A program made the translations under genes and the position numbers. The notes under the pieces are model-generated. The model did not search any database, was not told the origin of the DNA, and saw only the letters and a list, made by a program, of their open reading frames with translations. Of a stretch of 50,898 nucleotides of DNA, positions 2,542 to 22,294 are shown piece by piece; within the stretch, counting starts at the first letter, position 1, and the number at the start of each line of letters is the position of its first letter. The stretch is from a virus, in IMG/VR virus record IMGVR_UViG_3300006929_000024, positions 1 to 50,898 of that record. One strand, written 5' to 3'.

Positions 2542-3216
2542 ATGGGAAATTTAATATCAAACATTCCATACTTTAAAGTATGGGTACGTAGAGAGTTTAC
2601 AGTAAATCATCGAAGGCATCATGGAGATTATCTTCATGCGTTAGCGATAGCTGTCACAAGTATTCCAGACCGATGTCTTTCCTTCCAAATCGTCTTTACT
2701 GGTTGTGAAGATGAAGAGAATCGTTTGGAAAATCCTCATGGTGGGGCGATGTGGGCTCGACTCCCGATTACGTCTCTAATCTTTGACGACCCACTTGATG
2801 ACTGGCCCAGTCCAATGCCTACTCATCTTGCCCAACCTTGGGATTGCTCAAGTAGAGAACATTCTATAATTCATTTTGACAGAACAAGTTCAAGTCCTTG
2901 GATATGTAAAATAGATGGTGAATTTTATACTGCTAAATATCATTTTACAGTAGACTATACTGGTAATGAAATAGCTGACGATCCAGCACAACACAAACAA
3001 AGTCATGTGCTACATTTAACAAACGGACCCTGGAAAGGTTGTATGGTAGCTTTACCTAATAATAGAGTTAGAGTTACTTCACCTGCAATGTGGGTGACTG
3101 GTGATGGAGCACCAGATTTTATACCAAGTCAATATACACATAGTGCTGAAGAGCATGATAGCTATATGGATTGGGAAACAACTTTTGATAATTTATATGC
3201 AGATAAAAAGAAATAA
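2542..3216 (+). CDS. Conserved marine-phage hypothetical protein (224 aa)
   Basis: The N-terminus (IPYFKVWVRREFT) and the following HHGDYLHALAIAVTS segment look like a conserved hypothetical family I have seen in marine phages, with no known function. No catalytic motif was recognised. An in-frame TAA sits 6 nt upstream of the ATG, so the start is fixed. With the -10 box ending at 2536 and no ribosome-binding site, a leaderless transcript is likely. The first 300 nt are visibly richer in G+C than the rest of the gene and its neighbours. Confidence 0.75.
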   Translation: MGNLISNIPYFKVWVRREFTVNHRRHHGDYLHALAIAVTSIPDRCLSFQIVFTGCEDEENRLENPHGGAMWARLPITSLIFDDPLDDWPSPMPTHLAQPWDCSSREHSIIHFDRTSSSPWICKIDGEFYTAKYHFTVDYTGNEIADDPAQHKQSHVLHLTNGPWKGCMVALPNNRVRVTSPAMWVTGDGAPDFIPSQYTHSAEEHDSYMDWETTFDNLYADKKK

Positions 3217-8344: not shown

Positions 8345-9905
8345 AATATTTGGACCTCCTGGAACAGGAAAGACGCATACTTTAGTGGAAAGAGTTTTAA
8401 AAGGACATCTAAAAAGAGGTGTTAAACCTATTGATATTGCTTTTATATCTTTTACAAACAAAGCAGTAAACACAGCAGTGGATAGAGCACTAAAAGCATT
8501 TCCACAATATGACACAGATGACTTTGCAAGATTTAAAACATTACATAAATTTTGTAGAAGATATTTTGAAGAAGAAGTATTTGATCCTAAAGCTTGTATG
8601 TTAGATTATGCACTTCAAGCAAAGATAATAAAAACATCTGACAAAAGATTATCTGATGATAATTTTACATATAAAGATTGGTCATTAGGTGTGTACGACA
8701 AGTCACGAAACATGATGGACGATCCTGTAAAAATATATAAAAAAGAACAAAACAAAATGGATAGTTTAGATGTGTATCTACGTAAAATAGATACTTACAA
8801 TCATTACAAAAAAGATTCTTTTATAGATTTTACAGATATGATTGAACGTACAATTGATGAGGTAGACTTTCCGCAGCTCGAGGTTTTGATATTAGATGAA
8901 GCACAGGACTTTACACCATTACAATGGAGTGTGTTGTATAAACTAGCTCAAAGTGCAAAAAGAATATATTTAGCTGGTGATGACGACCAAGGTATATATA
9001 AATTTAATGGTAGCGATCCTAAGTATTTCACAACTTATTTTCCTGGCAGAAAAGTAATCTTGCGACAAACAAGAAGATTTGGTGAAGCTATACATCATTT
9101 TAGTCAAGTAATACGAAGAGGTATATTAGATAGTATAGAAAAAGATTATGAACATTTACAAAAGGATGGATACGTAAAACGCTATCTTAATTTTGCAGAA
9201 ATACCTGTAGGAGAATTACCAGGTACTTGGTACATACTAGGTAGGGTAAATACTACAGTAAATGAGTTACGATTAAGTGCAAAAGAAGCTGGCTTGTATT
9301 TTGCTGATAACAGAGGTAATAAATCTTTTGATATAAAACAATGGAGAGCTATCAAAGCTTGGACTCGTATAGCAAAAGGTAAAGATATATCTAAACAAGA
9401 AGCAGAAAACATGATGAAGTTTATAAGAGAAATAAAAGATCATAGCTACAGACGAATGGGTTTTTGGATTGAGTTACCTGAAACACAAACATATGACTTT
9501 GATGGCTTATGTGATTGGTGTGGTTTAAATTTAAGTGATGAAGCTGCAACAAAAGCTTGGTGGGAAATATTGCAAAGAAACTTTACACCAAGTCAAACAG
9601 AATATTTTTTACGTTTACTACAAAGATATGGTCAAAAAACTTTAGATGATGACCCACAAATAATTATAGATACGATACATAGTGTTAAAGGTGGTGAGGC
9701 TAACAATGTAGTTTTGTATAGCAAAACAAATTGGCCTGCATCTTACATAAATAAAAAAGATGCCAAAGACAAGAGTGATGAGAAAAGAGTCTATTACACA
9801 GGAGCCACGAGAGCCAGAGATACTTTACATATACTATCTAGTAATTATAGGTATAATTATCCGATAGGTGAAGATTATTTAATTTATTTAAGGGAGAAAA
9901 AATAA
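8280..9905 (+). CDS. UvrD/Rep-like superfamily 1 DNA helicase
   Basis: Walker A GPPGTGKT (residues 25-32 from this start), motif Ia FISFTNKAV, motif II DEAQDF (206-211), motif III AGDDDQGIYKFNG, motif IV RQTRRFG and a C-terminal block TIHSVKGGEA...VYYTGATRARD (motifs V/VI) identify an SF1A helicase. It should unwind DNA 3'-5' at forks or during repair. It overlaps the primase gene by about 65 nt. GTG at 8271 and ATG at 8280 or 8283 are all possible starts, none with a strong SD. The stop shares its last base with the next ATG (TAATG). Confidence 0.92.
   Translation: MMNTTKSSELQKHKALYQKTIKIFGPPGTGKTHTLVERVLKGHLKRGVKPIDIAFISFTNKAVNTAVDRALKAFPQYDTDDFARFKTLHKFCRRYFEEEVFDPKACMLDYALQAKIIKTSDKRLSDDNFTYKDWSLGVYDKSRNMMDDPVKIYKKEQNKMDSLDVYLRKIDTYNHYKKDSFIDFTDMIERTIDEVDFPQLEVLILDEAQDFTPLQWSVLYKLAQSAKRIYLAGDDDQGIYKFNGSDPKYFTTYFPGRKVILRQTRRFGEAIHHFSQVIRRGILDSIEKDYEHLQKDGYVKRYLNFAEIPVGELPGTWYILGRVNTTVNELRLSAKEAGLYFADNRGNKSFDIKQWRAIKAWTRIAKGKDISKQEAENMMKFIREIKDHSYRRMGFWIELPETQTYDFDGLCDWCGLNLSDEAATKAWWEILQRNFTPSQTEYFLRLLQRYGQKTLDDDPQIIIDTIHSVKGGEANNVVLYSKTNWPASYINKKDAKDKSDEKRVYYTGATRARDTLHILSSNYRYNYPIGEDYLIYLREKK
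9857..9867. promoter_or_regulatory. One-mismatch copy of the TTATCNGATAA palindrome after a TATAAT
   Basis: Within the last codons of the helicase gene, TATAAT (9852-9857) runs directly into TTATCCGATAG. This is the same arrangement as at 17697-17712. No -35 box at normal spacing was found, so this may be chance inside a coding region, or a weak internal promoter for the small genes that follow. Confidence 0.25.
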
Positions 9906-12437: not shown

Positions 12438-12466
12438 TTGACTTATCCGATAAACTGGGATAATCT
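12438..12466 (+). promoter_or_regulatory. Promoter with TTATCCGATAA palindrome in the spacer
   Basis: The -35 TTGACT (12438-12443) runs directly into the 11-bp palindrome TTATC-C-GATAA (12443-12453). The -10 could be TAATCT (12461-12466, 17-nt spacer) or GATAAT (12459-12464, 15-nt spacer). It starts the small-gene operon 12533-15182. A protein bound at the palindrome would block sigma70 contact with the -35/spacer. Confidence 0.6.
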
Positions 12467-12532
12467 TTTTATATGGGTGGCACTCCAATTTATAATTATT
12501 CACAATGCCACCCACAACTTGGAGAAAGAAAC

Positions 12533-12796
12533 ATGAAACAGAAAAGAAAAATAAGATCATTTAAGAACTCAGACTGGTTAATGGTAACACCACAACATGT
12601 AAAGTTACACATAATGAGAATAACAACTTCATACTGGTATAACCCTAAAAACAAGATTACAATTAGAATACCATTAGAAGAAACACATCATATTATGATT
12701 GGTAAACATGGATACAAAGCAGCTGATGAATTGTTAATGACAGAAGAGTCTAAGAAAAAGAACTGGTCGTTATTAAAACCATTGAAGGTGGCGTAA
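12533..12796 (+). CDS. Hypothetical basic protein (87 aa)
   Basis: The ATG at 12533 follows a GGAG SD (12521-12524). The longer frame from 12473 would start upstream of the SD and inside the likely leader. The product is basic, with SYWYNPKNKITIRIPLEETHHIMIGKHGY in the middle, which looks like a small beta-rich fold. No family was recognised. It is the first gene after the palindrome promoter. Confidence 0.65.
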   Translation: MKQKRKIRSFKNSDWLMVTPQHVKLHIMRITTSYWYNPKNKITIRIPLEETHHIMIGKHGYKAADELLMTEESKKKNWSLLKPLKVA

Positions 12797-12951
12797 TGAA
12801 ATTAACAGAAAAACAAATGATCTCTATACTTAAAAATAACTTAATAGAAACTTGTTCAAAAGAAGAAAAGACACAAATATTTAATTTTGCTTTTGGTGAA
12901 GAGTTTATGAAGTCAAAAGACAAAGGAAGGTTGAAGGTATATCGTGAGTAA
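12796..12951 (+). CDS. Small hypothetical protein (51 aa)
   Basis: The start overlaps the previous stop (TAATG) and the end overlaps the next GTG by 8 nt. It is a helical, charged protein (LTEKQMISILKNNLIETCSKEE). There is no family match. The tight coupling on both sides and codon use like its neighbours support it as a real gene. Confidence 0.6.
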   Translation: MKLTEKQMISILKNNLIETCSKEEKTQIFNFAFGEEFMKSKDKGRLKVYRE

Positions 12952-13168
12952 AATTAAAAACTTTTTAATGGAAGTAGAAGAAGAGTTTTATGATATTGCA
13001 GAAGAAGATTGTTATGATGATGCTTTAAATCATATTGAACGTAAGTTTGGCACTATGGCAAGAGAGCATTGTGAATCTTTAATAAAAGAAAACCCTTATC
13101 TTGGTAATGAACCAAGTAAGGTGGTAAATTGTATGATGAAGGAAAATTTACGTCATGACGAAAGCTAA
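12944..13168 (+). CDS. Small acidic hypothetical protein, GTG start (74 aa)
   Basis: GTG at 12944 is preceded by GAAGG at normal distance. The protein is strongly acidic in its first half (EVEEEFYDIAEEDCYDDAL), a composition seen in early phage inhibitors and DNA mimics. That resemblance is only compositional. It overlaps the PP-loop gene by 14 nt. Confidence 0.65.
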   Translation: MSKIKNFLMEVEEEFYDIAEEDCYDDALNHIERKFGTMAREHCESLIKENPYLGNEPSKVVNCMMKENLRHDES

Positions 13169-14027
13169 AGAACTTATACGCAGAACCGATAGAGTGTCAG
13201 GTTTCGACCTAGATACTCCAGGTTGTATTAGTTTTTCTGGTGGTAGAACATCAGGATATATGCTACGTCAAATATTAGATTTTTATGACAATAAGTTGCC
13301 AGAGGATGTAAAAGTTGTTTTTTCGAATACTGGCAAAGAAATGCACGAAACATTAGATTTTGTACGAGATTGTGAAGTAAACTGGGATGTCAAGATCCAT
13401 TGGATTGAGTGGGATGAGGAGAATAAAGTTATAGAAGTAAACCATAACTCCGCATCACGAAACGGGGAGCCTTACGATAAACTAATTACAAAAAGAAAGT
13501 TTTTACCTAATCCAGTAACAAGATACTGTACCTCTGAACTAAAAATAAAACCTATGAAAGATTTTATGATGTCGAAGGGACATAATTATTGGGTAAACTA
13601 TGTTGGTCTACGTTACGATGAACCACATAGAGTAGCAAGATTATCACGAGCCAAGGACAAAGAAAGATGGGACAGTGAAGCACCATTGCATATAGAAAAG
13701 AAATCAGTAAGGGATGTAGCTGCGTTTTGGAAAAACAATAGCTTCGACCTTAAATTACCTGCTATCAATGGTAAAACACCATTAGGTAATTGTGATTTAT
13801 GTTTCTTGAAGGGTAAGAATACCATCATGAATATTATGAAAAACTACCCAGAAAAAGCACAATGGTGGATGGATCAAGAAAAAAAGCAGCTCGGAACCAA
13901 GTCAAAAGATGGATTTAAATTTAGACACGATAGACCAGATTATAAAACTTTGCTTGAAATAAGTAATAGCCAAATGGATTTGTTTGACTTTGATAAGTCA
14001 GATGACGTGTGTTTTTGTCATGATTAA
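13155..14027 (+). CDS. PP-loop ATP pyrophosphatase, PAPS reductase-like
   Basis: Residues 26-36 (SFSGGRTSGYM) form the SGGxxS PP-loop of the adenine-nucleotide alpha-hydrolase family, which activates substrates by adenylation. Cys-containing sites follow: RYCTSELKIKP, GNCDLCF and a terminal CFCHD (C286, C288). These could bind metal or carry sulfur. Phage members are usually labelled phosphoadenosine phosphosulfate reductase, but the surrounding replication genes suggest a nucleic-acid modification (for example thiolation) is at least as likely. The substrate is not known from sequence. Confidence 0.8.
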   Translation: MTKAKELIRRTDRVSGFDLDTPGCISFSGGRTSGYMLRQILDFYDNKLPEDVKVVFSNTGKEMHETLDFVRDCEVNWDVKIHWIEWDEENKVIEVNHNSASRNGEPYDKLITKRKFLPNPVTRYCTSELKIKPMKDFMMSKGHNYWVNYVGLRYDEPHRVARLSRAKDKERWDSEAPLHIEKKSVRDVAAFWKNNSFDLKLPAINGKTPLGNCDLCFLKGKNTIMNIMKNYPEKAQWWMDQEKKQLGTKSKDGFKFRHDRPDYKTLLEISNSQMDLFDFDKSDDVCFCHD

Positions 14028-14042
14028 TAAAAAGGAGAAAAT

Positions 14043-14249
14043 ATGGACAATAAAAATTGGAAAAGTATAACAGTCAACATAGATGATTACCATGCAGTAC
14101 GTGGTATATCACAAATGAAAAGCAGAAAACTTTCTGGGACTATTATAAAATTGATAAACGACTATATAAAAAATGTAGCAAAAGATAATAAAGAAGATTA
14201 TGATAAATTTAGAAAAAAATTAATTAAAATGTCAAAAAACGGAGGATAA
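14043..14249 (+). CDS. Ribbon-helix-helix-like small protein, candidate regulator
   Basis: Residues 6-38 (KSITVNIDDYHAVRGISQ followed by RKLSGTIIKLINDYI) fit the ribbon-helix-helix layout: a short beta strand, helix, turn with G, and second helix. The 68-aa size and basic C-terminus also fit. RHH proteins bind palindromes as dimers. It is encoded in the operon behind the TTATCCGATAA promoter at 12438, so autoregulation and control of the other palindrome promoters is a testable idea. An AAAGGAG SD precedes the ATG. Confidence 0.6.
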   Translation: MDNKNWKSITVNIDDYHAVRGISQMKSRKLSGTIIKLINDYIKNVAKDNKEDYDKFRKKLIKMSKNGG

Positions 14250-14250
14250 G

Positions 14251-14424
14251 ATGAAGTTAGTTAAAAAACACAAAATATGCGAACATTGTAAGGGTAATGG
14301 CTATCAAATTATTAGACAATTAGCTGGTATCATACAAACGCAAACATGTTTCTGGTGTAAAGGTGAAGGTTATACCGAAACTGTATATGAATGGGAAAAG
14401 GAAGAAGAACAAAAGTTAGCATGA
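14251..14424 (+). CDS. Small zinc protein with two CxxCxGxG motifs (DnaJ-type)
   Basis: A 57-aa protein with CEHCKGNGY (from C10) and CFWCKGEGY (from C33), i.e. one pair of DnaJ central-domain motifs that would hold a single zinc ion. The start has a strong SD (CGGAGGATAAG). In the SAR116 phage HMO-2011 a partial DnaJ central motif is reported fused to DNA polymerase; here it is free-standing in the small-gene operon. A role in protein-protein contacts or redox is possible. Confidence 0.75.
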   Translation: MKLVKKHKICEHCKGNGYQIIRQLAGIIQTQTCFWCKGEGYTETVYEWEKEEEQKLA

Positions 14425-14439
14425 AGCACGAATGACGAG

Positions 14440-14457
14440 CCAGTCATAAACTGGAGG
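14440..14457 (+). promoter_or_regulatory. Hairpin overlapping a Shine-Dalgarno (CCAGT-CATAA-ACTGG)
   Basis: A 5-bp stem (14440-14444 with 14450-14454) pairs with the first two bases of the GGAGG SD (14453-14457) for the gene at 14462. It could weakly limit translation of that gene. Confidence 0.3.
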
Positions 14458-14461
14458 TCAT

Positions 14462-14689
14462 ATGGAAGTAATAAATAAGAAAAAATTTTTAGCAGACTGT
14501 TTGCGTGTGCTAAATAAAAAACTGACTAAACAAGAATATCAACAGATTATTACTTTGTTGGAAGGTTTTTATCAGGGTGAAACTTACGGGTACGATAGTG
14601 GTTTTGACCCTGTTTTTTATGCAGATTTGCGTAATGAAAATTTACATGTCAAATACGACAATGTTGTACCATTAACAAGGAATAAGTAA
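14462..14689 (+). CDS. Hypothetical protein (75 aa)
   Basis: It has a GGAGG SD 4 nt upstream. The N-terminal 45 residues are helical (KKFLADCLRVLNKKLTKQEY), and the C-terminal part contains GYDSGFDPVFYADLR. There is no recognised family. It sits directly before a GTG-started gene in the same operon. Confidence 0.65.
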   Translation: MEVINKKKFLADCLRVLNKKLTKQEYQQIITLLEGFYQGETYGYDSGFDPVFYADLRNENLHVKYDNVVPLTRNK

Positions 14690-14690
14690 G

Positions 14691-15182
14691 GTGGCAGAGA
14701 AACAACAGTTTCAGCCACCTTCAACAGAATTTCTAATGCGTATGGGATATAGATTCTCACGCACTTTACTAAACCATGATAACTTATGTCCCGAAAATTA
14801 TTTGTGGAGAGCAGTAGTCGTAAATGCTTTGGAAGATTGTATGATTGTAAGAGGGGATCGTAAGTCGTCTACCTTTAAACAATCAGCTCACAACTGGATT
14901 ATTACAAACTGTAAAGACTTTGACATGGTTTGTAATTGGGCAATGTTAGATCCAGATGACGTAATAGCTGCTTACAAAAACGCACTTAAACAAAAAAATA
15001 TTAAGTTTACCATCAAACATGTTATGTGGAGTAAGTATAACAGTTTGTCCAGGTGCTCGAATCGGGAGCCAGAAAGTAGAAGAAAAAGATTATTAAAATG
15101 TGAAATGAAAAAAATTAGAAGTAAAGTTAAGGAAACATCAAATTATTTTGTATCTACAGTTTTTATTAATGTTGTGGCATAA
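14691..15182 (+). CDS. Conserved hypothetical protein of alphaproteobacterial phages (163 aa), GTG start
   Basis: The segment NYLWRAVVVNALEDCMIVRG followed by SAHNWIITNCKDFDMVC and AMLDPDDVIAAY matches a layout (AV-x-x-A-x-E-D ... A-x-x-W-x-x-x-x-D-F-x-x-VC ... A-x-x-D-P-D-x-V) I recall in many alphaproteobacterial phage and prophage hypothetical proteins. The function is unknown. The C-terminal 55 residues are strongly basic, so nucleic-acid contact is possible. GTG at 14691 follows TAAGG. It is the last gene before the non-coding stretch. Confidence 0.7.
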   Translation: MAEKQQFQPPSTEFLMRMGYRFSRTLLNHDNLCPENYLWRAVVVNALEDCMIVRGDRKSSTFKQSAHNWIITNCKDFDMVCNWAMLDPDDVIAAYKNALKQKNIKFTIKHVMWSKYNSLSRCSNREPESRRKRLLKCEMKKIRSKVKETSNYFVSTVFINVVA

Positions 15183-15219
15183 AAAAAGAGTGGCAAGACA
15201 CAAAAAAACTTGCCACTCT
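15181..15219 (-). terminator. 11-bp hairpin oriented as a leftward terminator
   Basis: AGAGTGGCAAG (15187-15197) pairs perfectly with CTTGCCACTCT (15209-15219) across an 11-nt A-rich loop. The A7 run at 15181-15187 becomes a T7 tract on the minus strand, so the canonical terminator direction is leftward. No T-tract follows on the plus strand. No leftward gene lies to its right, so it may stop antisense transcription or act as an RNA hairpin ending the upstream operon. Confidence 0.6.
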
Positions 15220-15232
15220 ATACCAAACGGAG

Positions 15233-15252
15233 TGATTGTGATAACACAATCA
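15233..15252. promoter_or_regulatory. 20-bp perfect dyad, 8-bp arms around ATAA
   Basis: TGATTGTG and CACAATCA are perfect inverted arms separated by ATAA. The size and symmetry are those of a dimeric operator. It lies between the leftward hairpin and the iteron region. An ACGGAG and a GTG codon overlap it, so it could also be a translational hairpin for a 37-codon frame (15238-15351), which I do not call as a gene. Confidence 0.5.
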
Positions 15253-15287
15253 TCTTATAAATATAGGTATTTGAAGGAGAAGTCAAT

Positions 15288-15362
15288 ATGTTTTTGCCAA
15301 AAAGTTGTTTGTACTATATGTTTCTATACAAACTTTTTTTTAAAAACATAAGTGTAAAATAG
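15288..15362 (+). CDS. Doubtful 24-aa peptide with good Shine-Dalgarno
   Basis: GAAGGAGA ends about 8 nt before an ATG opening a 24-codon hydrophobic/aromatic frame. This is the best-looking translation start in the non-coding stretch. It may be a real micropeptide or a relic. No other support was found. Confidence 0.25.
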   Translation: MFLPKSCLYYMFLYKLFFKNISVK

Positions 15363-15369
15363 GCAATAG

Positions 15370-15460
15370 TTTTGGGAAAACAGGAAAAACAGGAGAAAAC
15401 ATAGTGTTACAGAGAAATAGTTTTGGGAAAGTTTTGGGAATTTTGCATGTTTTTTGGGAA
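15370..15460. repeat. Four TTTTGGGAA iterons upstream of the small terminase gene
   Basis: Exact copies lie at 15370-15378, 15421-15429, 15432-15440 and 15452-15460, all in the same orientation. They are followed by a very AT-rich segment (15481-15515) directly before the small terminase start. Clustered same-strand iterons next to AT-rich DNA are typical of replication origins. The position next to the small terminase gene equally fits a pac site bound by that protein. Confidence 0.6.
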
Positions 15461-15520
15461 AAGAGAGGACTGTTTTGCAGAAAAATTTAAAAATATTTTA
15501 TTTTTTGTATAGAGATATAT

Positions 15521-16036
15521 ATGCCACAGAGAAGTAAACAGGTTAGAACAATAGACGATTTAACAATAAAACAAAAAAAGTTTATTGATATATTAGTTAG
15601 TCAATGGGGACAAATAACAAAGACAGATGCTTTGTTACAAGCTGGCTATAAAACTAAAACAAAAGATGCTGCAATGGTTATGGCAAGTAAATTAACAAAT
15701 CCAAATGCTAATCCACATGTGTGTAGATACCTTGAACATAAACTAAGTAAAGAACAAGAAAAATATGAAAAAGATAAATTAAGAAGATATAAAACCTTTG
15801 AAAGACTTAGAGATGGAGCAGAACAGAAAGGACAATACACAGGTGCAATTAATGCAGAATTTCGTTCAGGTCAATTAGCAGGTCAATTTGTAGAAAAAAA
15901 AGAAGTCTTACATAGTAGTCTTGAGGGTATGAGTAGAGAACAATTAGAAAAAAGATTACAAGAATTGGAGAAAAAAATAGATGATGGCGGCACAATAATT
16001 GATGTAACTCCAATAACAAAAAAGATAAAAAAATGA
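15521..16036 (+). CDS. terS: Terminase small subunit
   Basis: The N-terminal segment LTIKQKKFIDILVSQWGQITKTDALLQAGYK (quoted in part) and the ASKLTNPNANPHVCRYL block match the helix-turn-helix DNA-binding domain of Terminase_2-type small subunits. A Lys/Glu coiled coil (about 80-110) and an acidic-to-basic C-terminal tail follow, as expected for oligomerisation and contact with the large subunit. It recognises viral DNA for packaging. It is unusual in lying about 4.7 kb upstream of the large subunit, separated by the cassette region. Confidence 0.82.
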   Translation: MPQRSKQVRTIDDLTIKQKKFIDILVSQWGQITKTDALLQAGYKTKTKDAAMVMASKLTNPNANPHVCRYLEHKLSKEQEKYEKDKLRRYKTFERLRDGAEQKGQYTGAINAEFRSGQLAGQFVEKKEVLHSSLEGMSREQLEKRLQELEKKIDDGGTIIDVTPITKKIKK

Positions 16037-16446
16037 ATATTAAAATAGTAAATAAAATAAATGACGTTAATGTAAATGATGATCCTGTTAGAAAAAATTT
16101 AAGTTATAAATTTAGAACTACACAAGGTAGAAAAATTTATACTATCGTAAATAAAGCAGTTGTTTGTGTAGCTAACACAACTAAGGTGCCAACTAATATA
16201 CAGGAGTTAAGAAAATTTTCTAATGAAGACACAAATGAATTTTCTATATTTTATACTTTATGGAGTTATGAAAAAGGTTATGGAACTATAATTTTAAATA
16301 CTTTATTACCTATGTTAAATACAAAAAAATTTGTAACTTTATCTCCAAAAACTAAAATGGCTTACAATTTTCATATAAAAAATGGTGCAAAACTACTAGC
16401 TATAAATAATAAAAGTTATAACTTTGAGTATAAAAATGAAACTTAA
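16033..16446 (+). CDS. GNAT-like acyltransferase-fold protein
   Basis: The C-terminal half contains YTLWSYEKGYGTIILNTLLPML followed by FVTLSPKTKMAYNFHIKNGAK. It resembles the acetyl-CoA-binding and final beta/alpha part of GNAT proteins (G-x-G loop, then L-S-x-x-T-x-M-A-x-x-F-H-x-x-N-G-A), a pattern seen in phage proteins. The N-terminal 50 residues are less clear. The acceptor is unknown. Its start overlaps the small terminase stop (ATGA). Confidence 0.6.
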   Translation: MNIKIVNKINDVNVNDDPVRKNLSYKFRTTQGRKIYTIVNKAVVCVANTTKVPTNIQELRKFSNEDTNEFSIFYTLWSYEKGYGTIILNTLLPMLNTKKFVTLSPKTKMAYNFHIKNGAKLLAINNKSYNFEYKNET

Positions 16447-16822
16447 AAATAAACTTACTGAGAAAAAAATTTGGAACTATCTTAACCAGTTTCAAAAAGA
16501 AAACAAAGAAGCTCATTTTACTAGGATAGAAAGCTCTACAATCAACGGAATACCTGATGTTTATTGTGTTCACCAGGGTTATAGTTTTTGGTTAGAATTA
16601 AAAGCGAATGAAGTTAAGAATTGCAATATGTCAAAATTTCAAATGGTATGGCATATCAATAATAAACGTGCTGGTGGTAATTGTTTCATCTTGAACTGGC
16701 CCCTCTTGGAACTTGGTCCTAAACTTCTTGAAGTCCGTGAACCGAATGCCGTGGTTCCCGTTTCTACAGTTCCCGTTCCCGTTCTACACATTCTATTATG
16801 GTTAGAGGATCAGGTCCTGTAG
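16436..16822 (+). CDS. VRR-NUC domain nuclease with repeat-derived C-terminal tail
   Basis: NGIPDVY (D41) and FWLELKA (E54, K56) are the PD-x(n)-E-x-K catalytic core of VRR-NUC (Holliday-junction-resolvase-like) nucleases. ATG 16436 is preferred over 16424 because of the GAG 7 nt upstream. The family's core ends near residue 95; the remaining 33 residues (VVPVSTVPVPV...) are a translation of the GC-rich TTCCCG repeat element that begins at 16754, so the natural C-terminus appears to have been replaced or extended by the repeat. Confidence 0.8.
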   Translation: MKLKNKLTEKKIWNYLNQFQKENKEAHFTRIESSTINGIPDVYCVHQGYSFWLELKANEVKNCNMSKFQMVWHINNKRAGGNCFILNWPLLELGPKLLEVREPNAVVPVSTVPVPVLHILLWLEDQVL

Positions 16823-17024
16823 CAGCCCAGCCAGGGCCGCATGGCAAAACACAGCTCCCGTTCCCGTTACAAATCCCAGACTTCTGGGGTTTTTTAGTTA
16901 GGAGGGACAGGATGGCCGCGGGATCGCACGGGAAAACGCTGTTCCCGTTCCCGTTGCAAAGGTTGGTTTTCTGGGGTTTTTTATAGTTAAAGCGTTTCCG
17001 GCCCTGCGCGCAGCGGGAAAACGC
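16754..17024 (+). repeat. GC-rich repeat block R1 (three units: 16754-16854, 16855-16940, 16941-17024)
   Basis: Each unit opens with (C/T)CCCGTTCCCGTT, passes through a T-tract (CTGGGGTTTTTT in units 2 and 3), a TAGTTA or TATAGTTA word, and a GC-rich 3' half ending in CGGGAAAA. Unit starts are about 85 bp apart. Unit 2 contains GGGATCGCACGGG (as in R3 and R4), and unit 3 contains CGGCCCTGCGC (as in R3). This block fills most of the gap between the nuclease gene and the next promoter and is far richer in G+C than the genome. Confidence 0.85.
16875..16895 (+). terminator. Terminator-like hairpin in R1 unit 2
   Basis: CCCAG (16875-16879) pairs with CTGGG (16884-16888) across ACTT, followed by G and T6. 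It probably ends the terminase/nuclease transcript. Confidence 0.55.
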
Positions 17025-17089
17025 ATCATGGAAATGCCCAGTTTTCTGCGTGTTCCGTGAGCTGTCTGGCTGGCAGCTTTCCCAGGCAC

Positions 17090-17105
17090 AGCAGCAAAAG
17101 CTGCT
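17090..17105. repeat. 6-bp hairpin AGCAGC-AAAA-GCTGCT touching the -35 box
   Basis: A perfect GC-rich inverted repeat whose last base is the first base of the TTGACA at 17105. It could be an additional operator or the 3' end of an upstream hairpin. There is no gene in 16823-17159, only repeats, this hairpin and the promoter. Confidence 0.45.
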
Positions 17106-17141
17106 TGACATCCTGTGAAGCCCTGTTATATTATCCTATAA
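17105..17141 (+). promoter_or_regulatory. Promoter of cassette A with palindrome (one mismatch)
   Basis: TTGACA (17105-17110), a 16-nt spacer and TATATT (17127-17132) make a near-consensus promoter. The palindrome copy TTATC-C-TATAA (17131-17141) overlaps the end of the -10 box and the expected start site. AACGGAGGAAAAA follows as the ribosome-binding site. Confidence 0.7.
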
Positions 17142-17159
17142 ACAACGGAGGAAAAACAC

Positions 17160-17450
17160 ATGATAATAACTTTAAGTAAACAAAATTTTTTGGAGCAGGT
17201 GCGGCAGCACTCACGCTGGAAGCAATTCAGCTACGAGGCGTGGGAACAAATCTTCGAATGGGAAGAAGAGAGAAACGACAACAACAACAACGAGTATGAC
17301 CCTGTAGCCTTTTGTTGCGATTATGCAGAGTATAGTTCTTTTGACCAACTAAAGGATGATTACAGTGACATTGAAAGCAAAGAAGATTTAGAAGGACAGA
17401 CTTGGGTTAGTTACTTGCCTGAGGGTCGTATATTAATGAGGCAGTTTTAA
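17160..17450 (+). CDS. Small acidic conserved protein (96 aa)
   Basis: The pattern EYDPVAFCCDYAEYSSFDQLKDDY followed by an acidic helix and a short basic end (GRILMRQF) recalls a widespread family of small acidic proteins found in phages and bacteria (D-P-x-A-x-C-C-[DE]-[FY]). No biochemical role is known to me. The acidity is compatible with a DNA mimic, but that is only a suggestion. The first 120 nt are noticeably richer in G+C than neighbouring genes. A strong SD (GGAGG) precedes it. Confidence 0.75.
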   Translation: MIITLSKQNFLEQVRQHSRWKQFSYEAWEQIFEWEEERNDNNNNEYDPVAFCCDYAEYSSFDQLKDDYSDIESKEDLEGQTWVSYLPEGRILMRQF

Positions 17451-17554
17451 TGGGTGCCTTTCTCGCTATTGTTGCAATGTTTGTGATGTTATATCCAAAG
17501 GGTGCAATGTTGTTCGGCATCTTCTTAATTTTATTTATAGCTTATTTAATATAA
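17450..17554 (+). CDS. 34-aa membrane peptide
   Basis: It starts on the last base of the preceding stop codon (TAATG). Two hydrophobic stretches (residues 2-15 and 19-34) separated by YPKG suggest a small helical hairpin in the membrane. It is the last gene of cassette A, immediately before the R2 repeat. Confidence 0.55.
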   Translation: MGAFLAIVAMFVMLYPKGAMLFGIFLILFIAYLI

Positions 17555-17555
17555 G

Positions 17556-17640
17556 TCCCGTTCCCGTTCCCGTTGCAAAAAGTAACGGGAGTCTCTTGTT
17601 TAAGTTACAGGATGGCAGCCGTGCCGCCGGAGCGGGAAAT
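17556..17640 (+). repeat. GC-rich repeat unit R2
   Basis: Three tandem TCCCGT repeats (17556-17574) form a 7-bp hairpin with AACGGGA (17584-17590). TTAAGTTA and a GC-rich half ending AGCGGGAAAT (17631-17640) follow. This copy lacks the poly-T tract, so it is not a canonical terminator. Confidence 0.8.
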
Positions 17641-17673
17641 GGGTTTGTTTCAAAAAAGTGAAAAAATATTTTT

Positions 17674-17712
17674 TTGACAAGTGTCTTTATATATACTATA
17701 ATTATCGGATAA
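17674..17712 (+). promoter_or_regulatory. Perfect-consensus promoter of cassette B with exact palindrome
   Basis: TTGACA (17674-17679), exactly 17 nt, and TATAAT (17697-17702) match the sigma70 consensus at every position. TTATC-G-GATAA (17702-17712) begins on the last base of the -10 box and covers the predicted start site, an ideal repressor position. The leader then carries AACGGAG. Confidence 0.88.
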
Positions 17713-17730
17713 TCAAAACGGAGAATAAAA

Positions 17731-17922
17731 ATGGATGAAATCACAAAACTAATGTTACAAGACCCTAGTTTCATAGAAGCTATGAAAGATTTTGAGGCAA
17801 GAGGTTTTATAAAAGTAAAGAAAGAAGGTGTCTTAATAATTAATAGAGAAGGTCTAATGGAGTATATGAAAGACTTTGGTAAAGCCCCTGACCACTTTCC
17901 AAAGGTAGAAGAAGATGTATAA
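17731..17922 (+). CDS. Hypothetical protein (63 aa), cassette B gene 1
   Basis: A mixed helical protein (MDEITKLMLQDPSFIEAM then FEARGFIKVKKEGVLII). It has a short beta-like segment and an acidic end. No family was recognised. An AACGGAGAATAAAA leader precedes the ATG. It overlaps the next gene by 8 nt. Confidence 0.7.
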   Translation: MDEITKLMLQDPSFIEAMKDFEARGFIKVKKEGVLIINREGLMEYMKDFGKAPDHFPKVEEDV

Positions 17923-18076
17923 CTATTATGTAATTCATGTCGACTATGGTAAGAAGACTATTGAAGCTAGTACAACCTATGAGGCATGTAAAAAATTTGC
18001 TCAACACTTTGGTCTAAGGAGTACCAGAGGTATAGATGCGTTTTTAATGACGCAAAAGGTGGTTGCTGATGTCTAA
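17915..18076 (+). CDS. Hypothetical protein (53 aa), cassette B gene 2
   Basis: Starts 8 nt before the previous stop and ends 8 nt inside the next gene. The pattern YYVIHVDYGKKTIEASTTYEACKKFAQHFGL, then a basic turn and a helix, suggests a small alpha/beta fold. There is no known family. Its place in a three-gene chain supports it. Confidence 0.6.
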   Translation: MYNYYVIHVDYGKKTIEASTTYEACKKFAQHFGLRSTRGIDAFLMTQKVVADV

Positions 18077-18296
18077 AACAAAAAAAAGAAAACTAGCTAC
18101 GCAAAAGCAATTGGATTTGGTTAAGGACAAAATGTTAGACTTGATGGAAGAAATAAAAGAAGATGTTGAGGTGCCCCAATTTATTTACGCATCCCAGTTT
18201 CTTATAGCTCAATTAGCATACGACACTGCACCAAATCACAACGAAGCAACAAGAATGTTATTGGGTAGTATTATTACCCATTTACAACAAAGATAA
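18069..18296 (+). CDS. Hypothetical helical protein (75 aa), cassette B gene 3
   Basis: ATG 18069 follows AGGTGG at normal distance; the TTG at 18063 is less likely. The protein begins with a very basic stretch (SKTKKRKLATQ) and continues as amphipathic helices. No family was recognised. It ends 9 nt before the terminator hairpin of repeat R3. Confidence 0.65.
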   Translation: MSKTKKRKLATQKQLDLVKDKMLDLMEEIKEDVEVPQFIYASQFLIAQLAYDTAPNHNEATRMLLGSIITHLQQR

Positions 18297-18300
18297 TTCT

Positions 18301-18480
18301 CGTTCCCGTTCCCGTTTCATACGGGAACGGATTTTTTTTATATATAGTTAAAGAAGCTGGCCAGGGATCGCACAGCACGGGTGGGAAAAGTAACTCTTGT
18401 TCCCGTTCCCGTTTTGAAAGGCAACAGAAATTTTTTTTCTTATAAGTAGTTTTACGGCCCTGCGCCAGAGCGGGAAATGA
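18301..18480 (+). repeat. GC-rich repeat block R3 (units 18301-18390 and 18399-18480)
   Basis: Both units start with GTTCCCGTTCCCGTT. Unit 1 has an exact 18-bp word in common with R4 (GCTGGCCAGGGATCGCAC at 18356-18373). Unit 2 shares CGGCCCTGCGC (18455-18465) with R1 unit 3 and ends AGCGGGAAATG, as in R2. Each has a T8 tract after its hairpin. There is no gene in 18297-18580. Confidence 0.85.
18306..18339 (+). terminator. Strong terminator built from the TTCCCG repeat
   Basis: CCGTTCCCGT (18306-18315) pairs perfectly with ACGGGAACGG (18321-18330) across TTCAT, followed by A and T8. It ends cassette B. Confidence 0.85.
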
Positions 18481-18525
18481 AATCATATTCTCGATTGTCT
18501 TACATTTGAAAATAAAAAAAATCGT

Positions 18526-18555
18526 TTGCGTTATCCGATATATATAGTATAATTA
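18526..18555 (+). promoter_or_regulatory. Promoter of cassette C with palindrome (one mismatch) in the spacer
   Basis: The -10 is a perfect TATAAT (18548-18553) embedded in TATAGTATAATTA. The -35 TTGCGT (18526-18531, 16-nt spacer) runs into TTATC-C-GATAT (18531-18541). The layout equals that of the promoter at 12438. AAAACGGAGGAAAAA precedes the ATG. Confidence 0.65.
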
Positions 18556-18580
18556 TATTTTAACCAAAACGGAGGAAAAA

Positions 18581-19177
18581 ATGGGATTTGATTTATACGG
18601 ACAAAATCCAAAACTAAAAGGAGAAGAACCTTATATTGATTGGACTAAAAAGCCATCAGATGAGGAGAAGAAAAAATACTTCAAAGCTAGAGAAAAATTT
18701 GAAGAACAAAATCCAGGTCATTATTTTAGAAATAATGTTTGGTGGTGGAGACCATTAGCAAATTATGTTTTGCAGTTAATGGCAAATGAGTTCACAGAAG
18801 ATGAAATGAAATCGTGGCATCACAATGACGGTTTTGAAGTTAGTGGAGAACAAGCTCAAAAAATTGCTGATAGACTTGAGCAAGAACTAAAAACAAATCG
18901 AGTAAAAACTGTAGAAGAGTTTTATAAAGTAAAGATGAAGAAAGCAGAAGAAGAAAATAAAATCGTGGAACAGAAGCACCAAGAATTAAAAAAGATTGTT
19001 GCAGATAAAACTGGAAAAGACAATCTAGTTCCTAGAGATTATCCAGAACCATTTAATAGTCAATGGAATGATATTCAAAAGCAGTTTAATTACGAATCTT
19101 CCTATCCATTTTCTGAAGAAAATGTAATTGACTTTATGAAGTTTTGTCGTGAATCTGGAGGCTTTCAGATTTGTTAG
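18581..19177 (+). CDS. Conserved MGFDLYG-type hypothetical protein (198 aa), cassette C
   Basis: The opening MGFDLYGQNP and the later HYFRNNVWWWRPLANYV followed by an NDG motif and a KIADRLEQEL helix are the hallmarks of a widespread uncharacterised family that I recall in phages and bacteria. Residues 110-150 are a Lys/Glu-rich insertion that looks like a coiled coil. The end (DFMKFCRESGGFQIC) is also typical. The function is unknown. It is the only gene between its promoter and terminator. Confidence 0.8.
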   Translation: MGFDLYGQNPKLKGEEPYIDWTKKPSDEEKKKYFKAREKFEEQNPGHYFRNNVWWWRPLANYVLQLMANEFTEDEMKSWHHNDGFEVSGEQAQKIADRLEQELKTNRVKTVEEFYKVKMKKAEEENKIVEQKHQELKKIVADKTGKDNLVPRDYPEPFNSQWNDIQKQFNYESSYPFSEENVIDFMKFCRESGGFQIC

Positions 19178-19196
19178 AAGCTTTTTCACTTTTTGG

Positions 19197-19232
19197 AGAG
19201 GGAGTGTTTTATTTAGCACTCTCTCTTTTTTT
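19197..19232 (+). terminator. Rho-independent terminator of cassette C
   Basis: AGAGGGAGTG (19197-19206) pairs with CACTCTCTCT (19217-19226; one G-U) across a 10-nt loop, followed by a T-tract. It lies before, and is separate from, repeat R4. Confidence 0.8.
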
Positions 19233-19252
19233 ATTGTATTGGAGAACTTGAG

Positions 19253-19390
19253 CTCCCGTTCCCGTTTCAAAAGGTAACGGAATTTTTTTCTTTATAGTTA
19301 GGAGGCTGGCCAGGGATCGCACGGGTGGGGAAATACTTGTGCGAACTCCGATGGATGCCCGTTCCCGTTTCGAAAGATAACGGAATTTTT
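19253..19390 (+). repeat. GC-rich repeat block R4 (unit 19253-19345 and partial unit 19358-19390)
   Basis: Unit 1 has CTCCCGTTCCCGTT, a CCGTT/AACGG hairpin (19262-19266 with 19276-19280) and a T7 tract. TATAGTTAGG and the shared GCTGGCCAGGGATCGCAC (19305-19322) follow. Unit 2 keeps only the hairpin and T-tract. No gene occupies 19178-19603; besides the repeats it holds the cassette C terminator and cassette D promoter, and 19395-19530 is plain AT-rich DNA. Confidence 0.8.
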
Positions 19391-19530
19391 ATTACCTGGT
19401 ATTAGAAAAAATCGCCAGCTGAAATTTTTTTACAAAAATTAAAAGCGTTTAAATGCGTCAGTTTGAAATTCAAGGTAGTTTAGTACCTATAAAAATATAA
19501 AAAAAAGTTAAAAATAAATGTTTTTTATCC

Positions 19531-19561
19531 TTGATTTTATCGGATAAGTCTGTATTATAAT
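19531..19561 (+). promoter_or_regulatory. Promoter of cassette D with exact palindrome
   Basis: TTGATT (19531-19536) is followed directly by TTATC-G-GATAA (19537-19547), and a perfect TATAAT lies at 19556-19561 (19-nt spacer, slightly long). The palindrome position matches the promoters at 12438 and 18526. The leader ends in AAGGAGTTTAAA before the ATG. Confidence 0.62.
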
Positions 19562-19603: not shown

Positions 19604-19939
19604 ATGGTAAAAAAAATAAAAAACACAAAAGCATATTTAGAAACATCAATTATTAGATGTTTTCAACTAGATACGCAAATCAAACAGTTATCAAAAGCAA
19701 GAGCAGAAGTTAAAAGAGATATAACTGAATTAATGAAAAATAAAAATAATTATGATTTCAGTAATGAACTACATACTTATGCTTTACAGATAATAGAAAA
19801 ATTTTCTACTATTATTGATACTGAACAAATGAAAGAAGATAAAGTTTATGACAAGTATAAAACAAAAGAAAGAAAGAGTATTACTTTTCATATTCTTAAA
19901 ATTGATAATAAAGACATCAAAAAAAGAGGTACTAAATAA
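19604..19939 (+). CDS. Hypothetical coiled-coil protein (111 aa), cassette D gene 1
   Basis: A Lys-rich, largely helical protein. Residues 20-45 (LDTQIKQLSKARAEVKRDITELM) have heptad character. No family was recognised. It has a good SD (AAGGAG) and is linked to the next gene by TAATG. Confidence 0.7.
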   Translation: MVKKIKNTKAYLETSIIRCFQLDTQIKQLSKARAEVKRDITELMKNKNNYDFSNELHTYALQIIEKFSTIIDTEQMKEDKVYDKYKTKERKSITFHILKIDNKDIKKRGTK

Positions 19940-20697: not shown

Positions 20698-22170
20698 ATG
20701 AACTCAAAAAACTTACCTACAGAAAAACTAAGGCTCGAAGTAGAAAAGAAGTGGATTCAGCATGTAAAGTTTTGTCAGGATAACTTTTTGTATTTTGTTA
20801 AAGAGATATGGCCAGAGTTTATATATCGTAAAACTACAAACAAGAAAAACATAGGACACCATCAACTTATCTCAAATGAGTTTACAAAAATAGCTTCTGA
20901 GAAAAAAGGAAGGCTCATCATAAACATGCCCCCTAGACATACTAAATCTGAATTTGCTTCCGTATATTTTCCTGCCTGGATTATTGGTAAGTATCCAAAA
21001 ATGAAAATTATGCAAGTGTCTCATAATACTGAACTGGCCGTAAGGTTCGGGAGTAAAGTGCGTAATATCATAGACTCACCAGAATACAAACAAATTTTCG
21101 GAGATGTTAAATTAAGAGAAGACTCAAAAGCAAAAGGTAGATGGGAAACAAACAAAGGTGGAGAATATTATGCAGCTGGTGTTGGAGCATCAATCACGGG
21201 TCGTGGAGCTGATTTATTGATTATTGATGATCCACACACGGAACAAGATTCTATGTCTGATATGGCTATGGAACGTGCATATGAATGGTACACTTCAGGA
21301 CCACGACAAAGATTACAACCTGGAGGCTCAATATTATTAGTAATGACAAGATGGGCAGAAGATGATTTGACTGGCAGATTGTTAAAGGCTCAAACGGAAC
21401 CTAAAGCAGATACATGGAAACAAATTTCTTTTCCAGCGATCCTCGAATCAGGGAACCCAGTATGGCCTGAATATTGGACCCTAGAAGAATTAGAAAAGTT
21501 AAAAGCTTCTGTACCAATTAGGAATTGGTCAGCCCAGTACATGCAAGAACCAACTTCTGATGAAGGAGCTATAATAAAACGAGAGTGGTGGCAACCTTGG
21601 GAGAAAGAAGACATACCTAATTTGGTGCATATTATACAAAGTTATGATACAGCATTTAGTAAAAAAGAAACTGCTGACTATTCTGCTATTACGACTTGGG
21701 GTATTTTTTATCCTGATGAAGTAACACCCAATATAATTTTACTTGATGCACTTAGAGGTAAATATGATTTTCCTGAACTCAAAGCTGTTGCATTAGATAC
21801 GTATAAATATTGGGAACCTGAAACGATAGTGATAGAACAAAAAGCAAGTGGCGAACCTTTAACGCAAGAATTTAGAAGAATGGGTATACCTGTTGTACCA
21901 TTTGTACCGACTAAGGGTAATGATAAACATACCAGAGTAAATGTGGTAGCTCCTATTTTCGAGAGTGGTCAGGTATGGTATCCTTATGGAGAAAAATTTG
22001 CCGAAGACGTGATTGACGAATGTGCAGCATTTCCAAATGGTGCCAACGATGACTATGTAGACAGTATGTCCCAAGCAATGTTAAGATATAGAAAAGGCAA
22101 TTTTGTTGAATTATATTCTGACTACATAGACAATGAGGATAGAATTCCTAAAGAATATAATTATTATTGA
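20698..22170 (+). CDS. terL: Terminase large subunit
   Basis: The ATPase domain has a variant Walker A PPRHTKSE (78-85), Walker B LLIIDD (173-178) and a coupling motif region (VMTRWAEDDL). The RNase H-fold nuclease domain shows YDTAF (D317), IEQKASG (E380) and DDYVDS (451-456). The 490-aa length is normal for the family. It cuts and pumps DNA into proheads through the portal encoded 2.6 kb downstream. The start is fixed by an upstream stop. The transcript is probably leaderless or the promoter lies further upstream. Confidence 0.96.
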   Translation: MNSKNLPTEKLRLEVEKKWIQHVKFCQDNFLYFVKEIWPEFIYRKTTNKKNIGHHQLISNEFTKIASEKKGRLIINMPPRHTKSEFASVYFPAWIIGKYPKMKIMQVSHNTELAVRFGSKVRNIIDSPEYKQIFGDVKLREDSKAKGRWETNKGGEYYAAGVGASITGRGADLLIIDDPHTEQDSMSDMAMERAYEWYTSGPRQRLQPGGSILLVMTRWAEDDLTGRLLKAQTEPKADTWKQISFPAILESGNPVWPEYWTLEELEKLKASVPIRNWSAQYMQEPTSDEGAIIKREWWQPWEKEDIPNLVHIIQSYDTAFSKKETADYSAITTWGIFYPDEVTPNIILLDALRGKYDFPELKAVALDTYKYWEPETIVIEQKASGEPLTQEFRRMGIPVVPFVPTKGNDKHTRVNVVAPIFESGQVWYPYGEKFAEDVIDECAAFPNGANDDYVDSMSQAMLRYRKGNFVELYSDYIDNEDRIPKEYNYY

Positions 22171-22177
22171 GGATAAT

Positions 22178-22294
22178 ATGATACAAAAAATTAAAGACAT
22201 ATTTAGTAAAATTAAAAAAAGATTATTTGGAAAATTGTGTGAGTGTCTTCCTAAGAAAAAAAAGGGAAGAGGCAGACCACCAAAAACAGGATAA
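22178..22294 (+). CDS. 38-aa basic peptide with an AT-hook
   Basis: The product is very basic and ends GRGRPPKTG: residues 30-36 are a canonical AT-hook (R-G-R-P core), which binds the minor groove of AT-rich DNA. The N-terminal 20 residues form an amphipathic basic helix. A GAGG SD lies at normal distance, and the gene ends just before the next start. In an AT-rich phage, immediately after the large terminase, it could condense or mark DNA for packaging. That is inference. Confidence 0.6.
   Translation: MIQKIKDIFSKIKKRLFGKLCECLPKKKKGRGRPPKTG

Follow-up and report, generated by a model that had tools for sequence, protein, structure and literature searches.

A recurrent palindromic operator at promoters of a pelagiphage genome, with a predicted ribbon-helix-helix protein as candidate repressor

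The window, that is, the whole stretch of DNA analysed here, is a single IMG/VR virus record of 50,898 nt related to Pelagibacter phage HTVC023P, the two DNA polymerases being 70% identical. Its gene order (primase, helicase, polymerase, small terminase at 15521, large terminase at 20698, and head and tail genes) is that of the HTVC023P group. Small genes of unknown function fill the interval between the small and large terminase genes, most of them with their own promoter upstream and often with a GC-rich terminator-like repeat behind them. No integrase gene was found among the window genes scanned, which covered the structural genes in part; the protein encoded at 14251 has a weak partial match to an 'integrase' PHROG. 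The HTVC023P-type phage HTVC027P has been described as lytic; none of its early genes has a known function, and its gp30, gp33, and gp34, situated between the terminase subunits, have unusual early/middle expression profiles (PMC12753301).

Five copies of a shared palindrome had been placed on promoters by the first-pass annotation, and all five were recovered at the same positions (Table 1). The operator reads TTATC-S-GATAA, where S is C or G; the copies at 12443, 17702, and 19537 are exact, and that at 18531 is TTATCCGATAT. The copy at 12443 belongs to the promoter of a gene run from 12473 to 15182, which includes the gene of a ribbon-helix-helix (RHH) protein at 14043. Of the two one-mismatch copies, 18531 proved strong, and 17131 is best seen as a weak or decaying site, since T replaces a G found in 34 of 34 non-redundant sites of relatives, and since the relatives range at this promoter of the 17160 gene from a good copy (TTATCCGATAT in L117, L179, L188, and L194) to a GGATAA half only. 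The set of five is thus four strong sites and a fifth that should not bear the argument. The overlap with sigma70-like promoters holds in both geometries described below, with the reservation that at 12438 and 18526 the -35 boxes score under the cut-off of the promoter scan, although relatives have better ones. A possible sixth site at 9857 had not been listed before; the same site is also present in the motif-negative contig L019, and coding constraint may explain it.

Table 1. Operator sites, neighbouring genes, and terminator-like repeats in the window
Feature	Position	Strand	Remarks
Possible sixth site TTATCCGATAG, last codons of helicase gene, 116 bp before 9973	9857..9867		Matrix score 14.5
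Operator TTATCCGATAA, directly after TTGAC(T) -35 box	12443..12453		Exact match
First ORF behind operator 12443; true start likely 12533, after 5'-UTR hairpin	12473..12796	+	
68-aa RHH protein, best repressor candidate	14043..14249	+	Predicted fold, pI 9.9, co-variation with operator
GC-rich CCGTTCCCGTT...AACGG terminator-like repeats, 8 copies of CCCGTTCCCGTT core	16772..19403	+	Separate the putatively operator-controlled cassettes
Weak/decayed operator TTATCCTATAA across -10/start of 17160 gene	17131..17141		One mismatch
96-aa very acidic protein behind weak operator 17131	17160..17450	+	pI 4.3
Operator TTATCGGATAA overlapping -10/start of TTGACA-17-TATAAT before 17731	17702..17712		Exact match; promoter 12/12
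63-aa acidic protein behind operator 17702	17731..17922	+	pI 4.9; co-distributed with operator
Operator TTATCCGATAT in spacer right after -35 box, before 18581	18531..18541		Matrix score 15.6
198-aa protein, function unknown, behind operator 18531	18581..19177	+	
Operator TTATCGGATAA in spacer after TTGATT, before 19604	19537..19547		Exact match
111-aa protein, function unknown, behind operator 19537	19604..19939	+	

Two placements are found relative to the promoter boxes. In a rough automatic classing of 39 sites, about 29 lie in the spacer and about 8 across the -10 box and start; the spacer-type sites begin within 1–2 bases of the -35 box and thereby take up the -35-proximal end of the spacer. 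The window has three spacer-type sites (12443, 18531, and 19537) and two of the -10/start type (17131 and 17702). Either placement would let a bound protein obstruct RNA polymerase, as expected of a repressor but not of the usual activator. Activators usually bind upstream of or at the -35 box, and MerR-type spacer activators require spacers of 19–20 bp. A palindrome acting as a promoter element, or as an activator site that raises transcription, would agree with the location at promoters; however, the placement of the site with respect to the same -35/-10 boxes is not fixed, and one of its two positions covers the start, which speaks against either role and leaves this explanation very improbable. 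Repression at these sites is judged likely.

With up to one mismatch allowed, TTATC-N-GATAA is matched 11 times in the window, where 3.2 ± 1.9 matches were expected, and none of 100 shuffles reached 11. The exact form TTATCSGATAA, present in three copies, averaged 0.003 copies in 300 dinucleotide shuffles of a 9.5-kb region, where it appeared once altogether and never in three copies. Furthermore, a palindrome screen blind to the motif (5-bp arms, gap 0–12) returned TTATC-1-GATAA as the sole repeated palindrome of the 9.5-kb region, a terminator arm aside, and recovered it in the diverged relatives L103, L104, and L120 as well. Palindrome families of any kind with at least three copies arose in 12 of 300 shuffles, giving a p of about 0.04 for the window alone; it is therefore the recurrence in relatives that settles the reality of the operator. 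The observation made in the first-pass annotation is confirmed.

The matrix scan of the genome and its relatives that had been recommended with that observation used 34 non-redundant sites from relatives for training, with the window left out. In the window it ranked 19537, 17702, 12443, and 18531 as the top four, followed by 9857 in fifth and 17131 in sixth place. All top four sites are noncoding, although noncoding sequence makes up 7% of the window, and they lie 29–67 bp before an ORF start. Six motif-positive relatives contain 23 sites above threshold, nearly all at promoters, against 4 in seven motif-negative relatives, so that coding sequence does not hold the many equally good matches that would have spoken against a regulon. 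A repeated and conserved site thus stands at several promoters and is rare elsewhere in the genome, the arrangement of a multi-operator regulon.

Relatives were fetched with polymerase, terminase, 17731, and RHH queries; for the RHH search the operator-clade subset of the alignment was used, the mixed alignment A1 having given no usable conserved stretch. In these relatives the same genes are preceded by the palindrome, within flanking sequence that has diverged, and the lack of conservation at orthologous genes that would have counted against the first-pass annotation was not observed. The 12443 operator is kept at the 3' end of the polymerase gene in L008, L010, L098, L106, L117, and L206, and lies 237 bp after this gene in L011 and L012. 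The 17702 architecture is repeated in L094, L103, L108, L185, L186, and L193, and stands over a different gene in L207 and L214. The 18531 operator is kept in most of 16 operator-clade regions upstream of the 18581 orthologue, with decay in L193 and L108, and the 19537 operator is aligned and kept in 8 non-redundant upstream regions, some with one or two base changes. The consensus of the 34 sites is TTATC-C/G-G-A-T-A-A, with TTATCCGTTAA as a recurrent variant; columns T2, C5, G7, T9, and A10 are invariant, partly by construction, as the set was gathered by pattern.

Chance and shared ancestry were considered as a source of this pattern, the cassettes being duplicated copies with the palindrome as a passenger, and the cassettes do have terminator repeats and ribosome-binding context in common. 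However, the cassettes are unlike one another in flanks and promoter geometry, and conservation across the collected sites is highest in the 11 columns, again partly by construction. When the DNA preceding the 18581 and 19604 orthologues is aligned with no selection for the site, the palindrome stays recognisable while the sequence upstream of it diverges. This pattern of conservation already disfavours a passenger, whose probability is close to negligible, and the operator is regarded as almost certainly real and conserved.

The distribution of the operator is narrow. Two exact promoter–operator patterns, searched against 2.9 million viral contigs, matched 16 contigs, nearly all from the operator subclade, and the operator is absent from HTVC023P, from the part of HTVC027P that was read, and from most related contigs. 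In the sequences compared, the operator is therefore confined to one subclade, and the phage regulon proposed in the first-pass annotation is upheld on this ground. In G012 (L119), virion genes are often 85–96% identical to those of the window, but the early region, RHH protein, and operators belong to another lineage; thus, the operator accompanies the early region and the RHH gene and not the virion genes. The motif-blind screen yielded no palindrome family that could serve as a replacement operator in HTVC023P, 023Pt_psg01, or HTVC027P. Among the motif-negative relatives screened, ATAAGA-N4-TCTTAT in L105, L116, and L119 is the sole convincing promoter-associated family, and the idea that every subclade has a palindrome of its own was dropped.

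A host transcription factor of SAR11 could in principle bind the palindrome, which the phage would have borrowed to couple its accessory genes to the state of the host, and the operator promoters do resemble host sigma70 promoters. Nevertheless, HTVC023P and HTVC027P were both isolated on strain HTCC1062, and the site is missing where it was sought in both, as in most related contigs; its restriction to one phage subclade points the same way. In addition, 142 alphaproteobacterial genomes, among which SAR11 members were not distinguished, contain 0–6 exact matches with no sign of a regulon. A host factor is accordingly quite improbable, and the regulator is most likely encoded by the phage, since the operator is restricted to one subclade and absent from HTVC023P.

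Three gene families follow the operator in their distribution: 14043, which is widespread but diverged, 17160, and 17731. Only the 14043 product, basic and with an RHH-like model, looks like a DNA-binding protein. Its AF2 model has a mean pLDDT of 92, with helices at residues 13–25 and 30–48 behind an extended segment at 7–12, to which no strand is assigned in the monomer model. The best Foldseek matches are MatP, CopA-SO, Arc, and CopG, with VIA Z values of 4–6 to many RHH proteins, and the protein is predicted to adopt the RHH (MetJ/Arc/CopG) fold of an N-terminal strand, helix A, a turn, and helix B. Profile matches are weak, to MatP and ParG, and the window protein has no significant sequence match to curated RHH families; single members of its family match RHH_5 (E 0.0016), VapB (0.0013), and MatP_C (0.006). 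The palindrome of 11 bp is short for two RHH dimers, which counts against an RHH protein as its binder.

From the alignment with Arc, we infer that the DNA-facing strand residues are S8, T10, and N12. This putative contact strand reads S-T-N or S-T-S in the operator-bearing phages, and its middle residue is A in nearly all of the other sequences read. The nine RHH proteins with T at this position group on a single branch (support 100/99, length 1.74), and operators lie nearby for eight of the nine; the 47 other proteins contribute one stray match, in L139. The motif-negative relatives keep an RHH homologue and have no recognisable common palindrome, and no 14043 homologue was detectable in the half of HTVC027P that was read. 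In L207 and L208, the T-contact RHH protein is present with no operator upstream of its gene; these contigs end before most of the cassettes. The association between RHH protein and operator is suggestive rather than proof, because it reflects one evolutionary transition and not many. Genes 17160 and 17731 were gained on the same branch and hence also co-vary with the operator.

A different phage protein has to be weighed as the binder, for example the 17731 product, acting either by itself or together with the RHH protein. Both 17731 and 17160 occur in the motif-positive genomes and are lacking in nearly all motif-negative ones, the start site of 17731 itself carries the operator, and there is a winged-helix (Crp-type) match that is weak (E 0.003) and far below the cut-off. 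Against this, the 17731 and 17160 products are acidic, with pI values of 4.9 and 4.3 and net charges of -4 and -12, and 17731 homologues in L198–L202 occur without the operator. In L207 and L214, a promoter with the operator-like TTAACGGATAA precedes an unrelated gene, so that the control element can persist without 17731 at that place. Binding by such a protein is considered unlikely. The 14043 protein is probably the binder, and its earlier choice as candidate regulator is backed by the predicted fold and the co-variation with the operator. Two further candidates were rejected. The zinc-ribbon-like 14251 protein, considered for the resemblance of GATAA to GATA sites, has no counterpart in any of the six motif-positive genomes compared, and the 49566 protein, co-distributed with the operator, matches no Pfam family and is read as acetyltransferase-like and not as a DNA binder. 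A 14251 homologue is present in L207.

TTATC-S-GATAA is thus interpreted, with reasonable confidence, as the operator of a phage-encoded repressor, the 14043 RHH protein, that binds and blocks promoters. The protein would bind as a dimer or higher oligomer and would exclude host sigma70 RNA polymerase by occupying the space between the -35 and -10 boxes or by lying across the -10 box and start. Its targets would be the accessory genes between the terminase subunits, each with its own promoter and mostly its own terminator, and the gene run downstream of the DNA polymerase, the repressor gene included. Operator 12443 fronts co-directional genes with short gaps, 14043 among them, and no terminator is predicted on the + strand between them; in operator-bearing relatives with 2.6 kb upstream of the RHH gene available, the operator lies 1.48–2.11 kb upstream of it. 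The position of 14043 in this run suggests an autorepressor layout, in which the protein would limit its own synthesis through operator 12443. As HTVC027P is described as lytic and its gp30, gp33, and gp34 have unusual profiles, the most likely purpose would be to shut down or cap early and accessory transcription once the repressor accumulates, a timing that we infer from this comparison. By any evidence here, nothing indicates a temperate-phage immunity repressor of the lambda CI or L5 type.

P22 Arc, F55 of SSV1, and SvtR offer the closest likeness, as virus-encoded RHH repressors that act at virus promoters including their own. Arc is a small RHH repressor that acts on an early promoter of the operon containing its own gene, where its operator is set between the -35 and -10 boxes. 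Arc structures are among the fold matches of the 14043 model, at a sequence identity of about 10–15%. Arc serves one operon through a 21-bp operator with two subsites, and P22 is temperate; here, in contrast, one compact 11-bp palindrome recurs at four to five promoters. In E. coli, MatP is one RHH protein acting on a short odd-length palindrome, matS GTGACRNYGTCAC. MatP is the best profile and Foldseek match of the 14043 protein, but it organises the chromosome, has extra domains, and differs in sequence. F55 of the Sulfolobus virus SSV1 and SvtR of SIRV1 are RHH repressors acting by promoter occlusion at several virus promoters and their own, the F55 sites being located at immediate-early promoters; they differ in that the viruses are archaeal, the F55 operators are tandem direct repeats, and F55 maintains lysogeny (PMC5569661). 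Cluster O mycobacteriophages contain 17-bp palindromes, phage-specific dyads at many loci that are absent from other phages; these number more than 30 copies, lie mostly away from promoters, and were judged by the authors unlikely to be regulatory (PMC4351075). Unlike these dyads, nearly all TTATC-S-GATAA sites are at promoters.

A literature search found no described operator or repressor for pelagiphages, and the regulon is rated as one of a known kind, a phage-encoded Arc/F55-like autorepressor, that is new for this abundant and poorly understood phage group. The defined DNA site, the candidate protein, and the target gene set make the circuit testable outside the slow-growing host, and the relatives provide a natural series that shows joint change of site and protein. 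A broader and rather doubtful reading is that the RHH repressor and its operator constitute a specificity group in lytic SAR11 phages, an immunity-like system without lysogeny. If that were true, the operator and the contact residues would shift together between subclades, and promoter–operator–gene–terminator cassettes would move in and out of genomes and come under the resident repressor. Furthermore, a resident phage could switch off accessory genes in a co-infecting relative belonging to its own group, and phages of other groups would be spared.

Between the genes of the small and large terminase subunits, the small genes of the window are set apart by eight copies of a repeat with a GC-rich CCCGTTCCCGTT core, accompanied by AACGG and T-runs. 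A GGCCAGGGATCGCACGGG-like tail exists in many copies, some of the eight show terminator folding, and the repeats are common to the operator clade (the relatives having TTATC-S-GATAA) and some near relatives. The protein encoded behind the weak operator 17131 is very acidic (pI 4.3, net charge -12) and could be a DNA mimic; in the set of genomes compared, no phage outside the operator clade has it. The basic protein, whose gene adjoins the large terminase gene and occurs in the operator clade, possesses a C-terminal end, KKKGRGRPPKTG, forming an AT-hook-like tail. A hairpin, similar to one in the relative L103, lies immediately downstream of operator 12443; the annotated start at 12473 is probably false, the true translation start being 12533.

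Features of the window
Feature	Positions	Family
Auxiliary gene, ferredoxin-annotated	2542-3216	phrog_3704
Hairpin GGGTGGCA...TGCCACCC	12473-12532	
Auxiliary gene, phosphoadenosine phosphosulfate reductase family	13155-14027	phrog_424
CCCGTTCCCGTT-core repeats	16772-19403	
96-aa acidic protein	17160-17450	
53-aa basic protein	22133-22294	

In HTVC027P, two minus-strand promoters (about 17345-17385 and 17735-17765) carry GTATAGGATAAT/GTATAGGATGAT directly after the -10 box, similar to the GGATAA half site of the weak operator. The motif-negative relatives L105, L116, and L119 contain a distinct palindrome, ATAAGA-N4-TCTTAT, which may be the operator of another phage repressor. Its three copies, two of them in tandem, are found at promoters in the stretch separating the two terminase genes, at distances of about 2.6-2.9 kb and 0.66-0.88 kb upstream of the large terminase gene. 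A repeated intergenic block with GTCTAGTATA...AAATATCGCAAATAAGGA precedes accessory genes in L129 (about -2098, -1469, and -905 relative to the large terminase gene) and L132 (about -2051).

Downstream of a spacer-type promoter, a short ORF (MKTNVALKRSGLLLW) is situated within the inverted repeat GAGAGAGTAAC...GGTAACTCTC, in L104 from about position 52. Both elements are also located upstream of the homologue of 17731, the gene of a 63-aa acidic protein, in L117, L182, L183, L195, L196, and L197, and the arrangement looks like a leader peptide or an attenuator.
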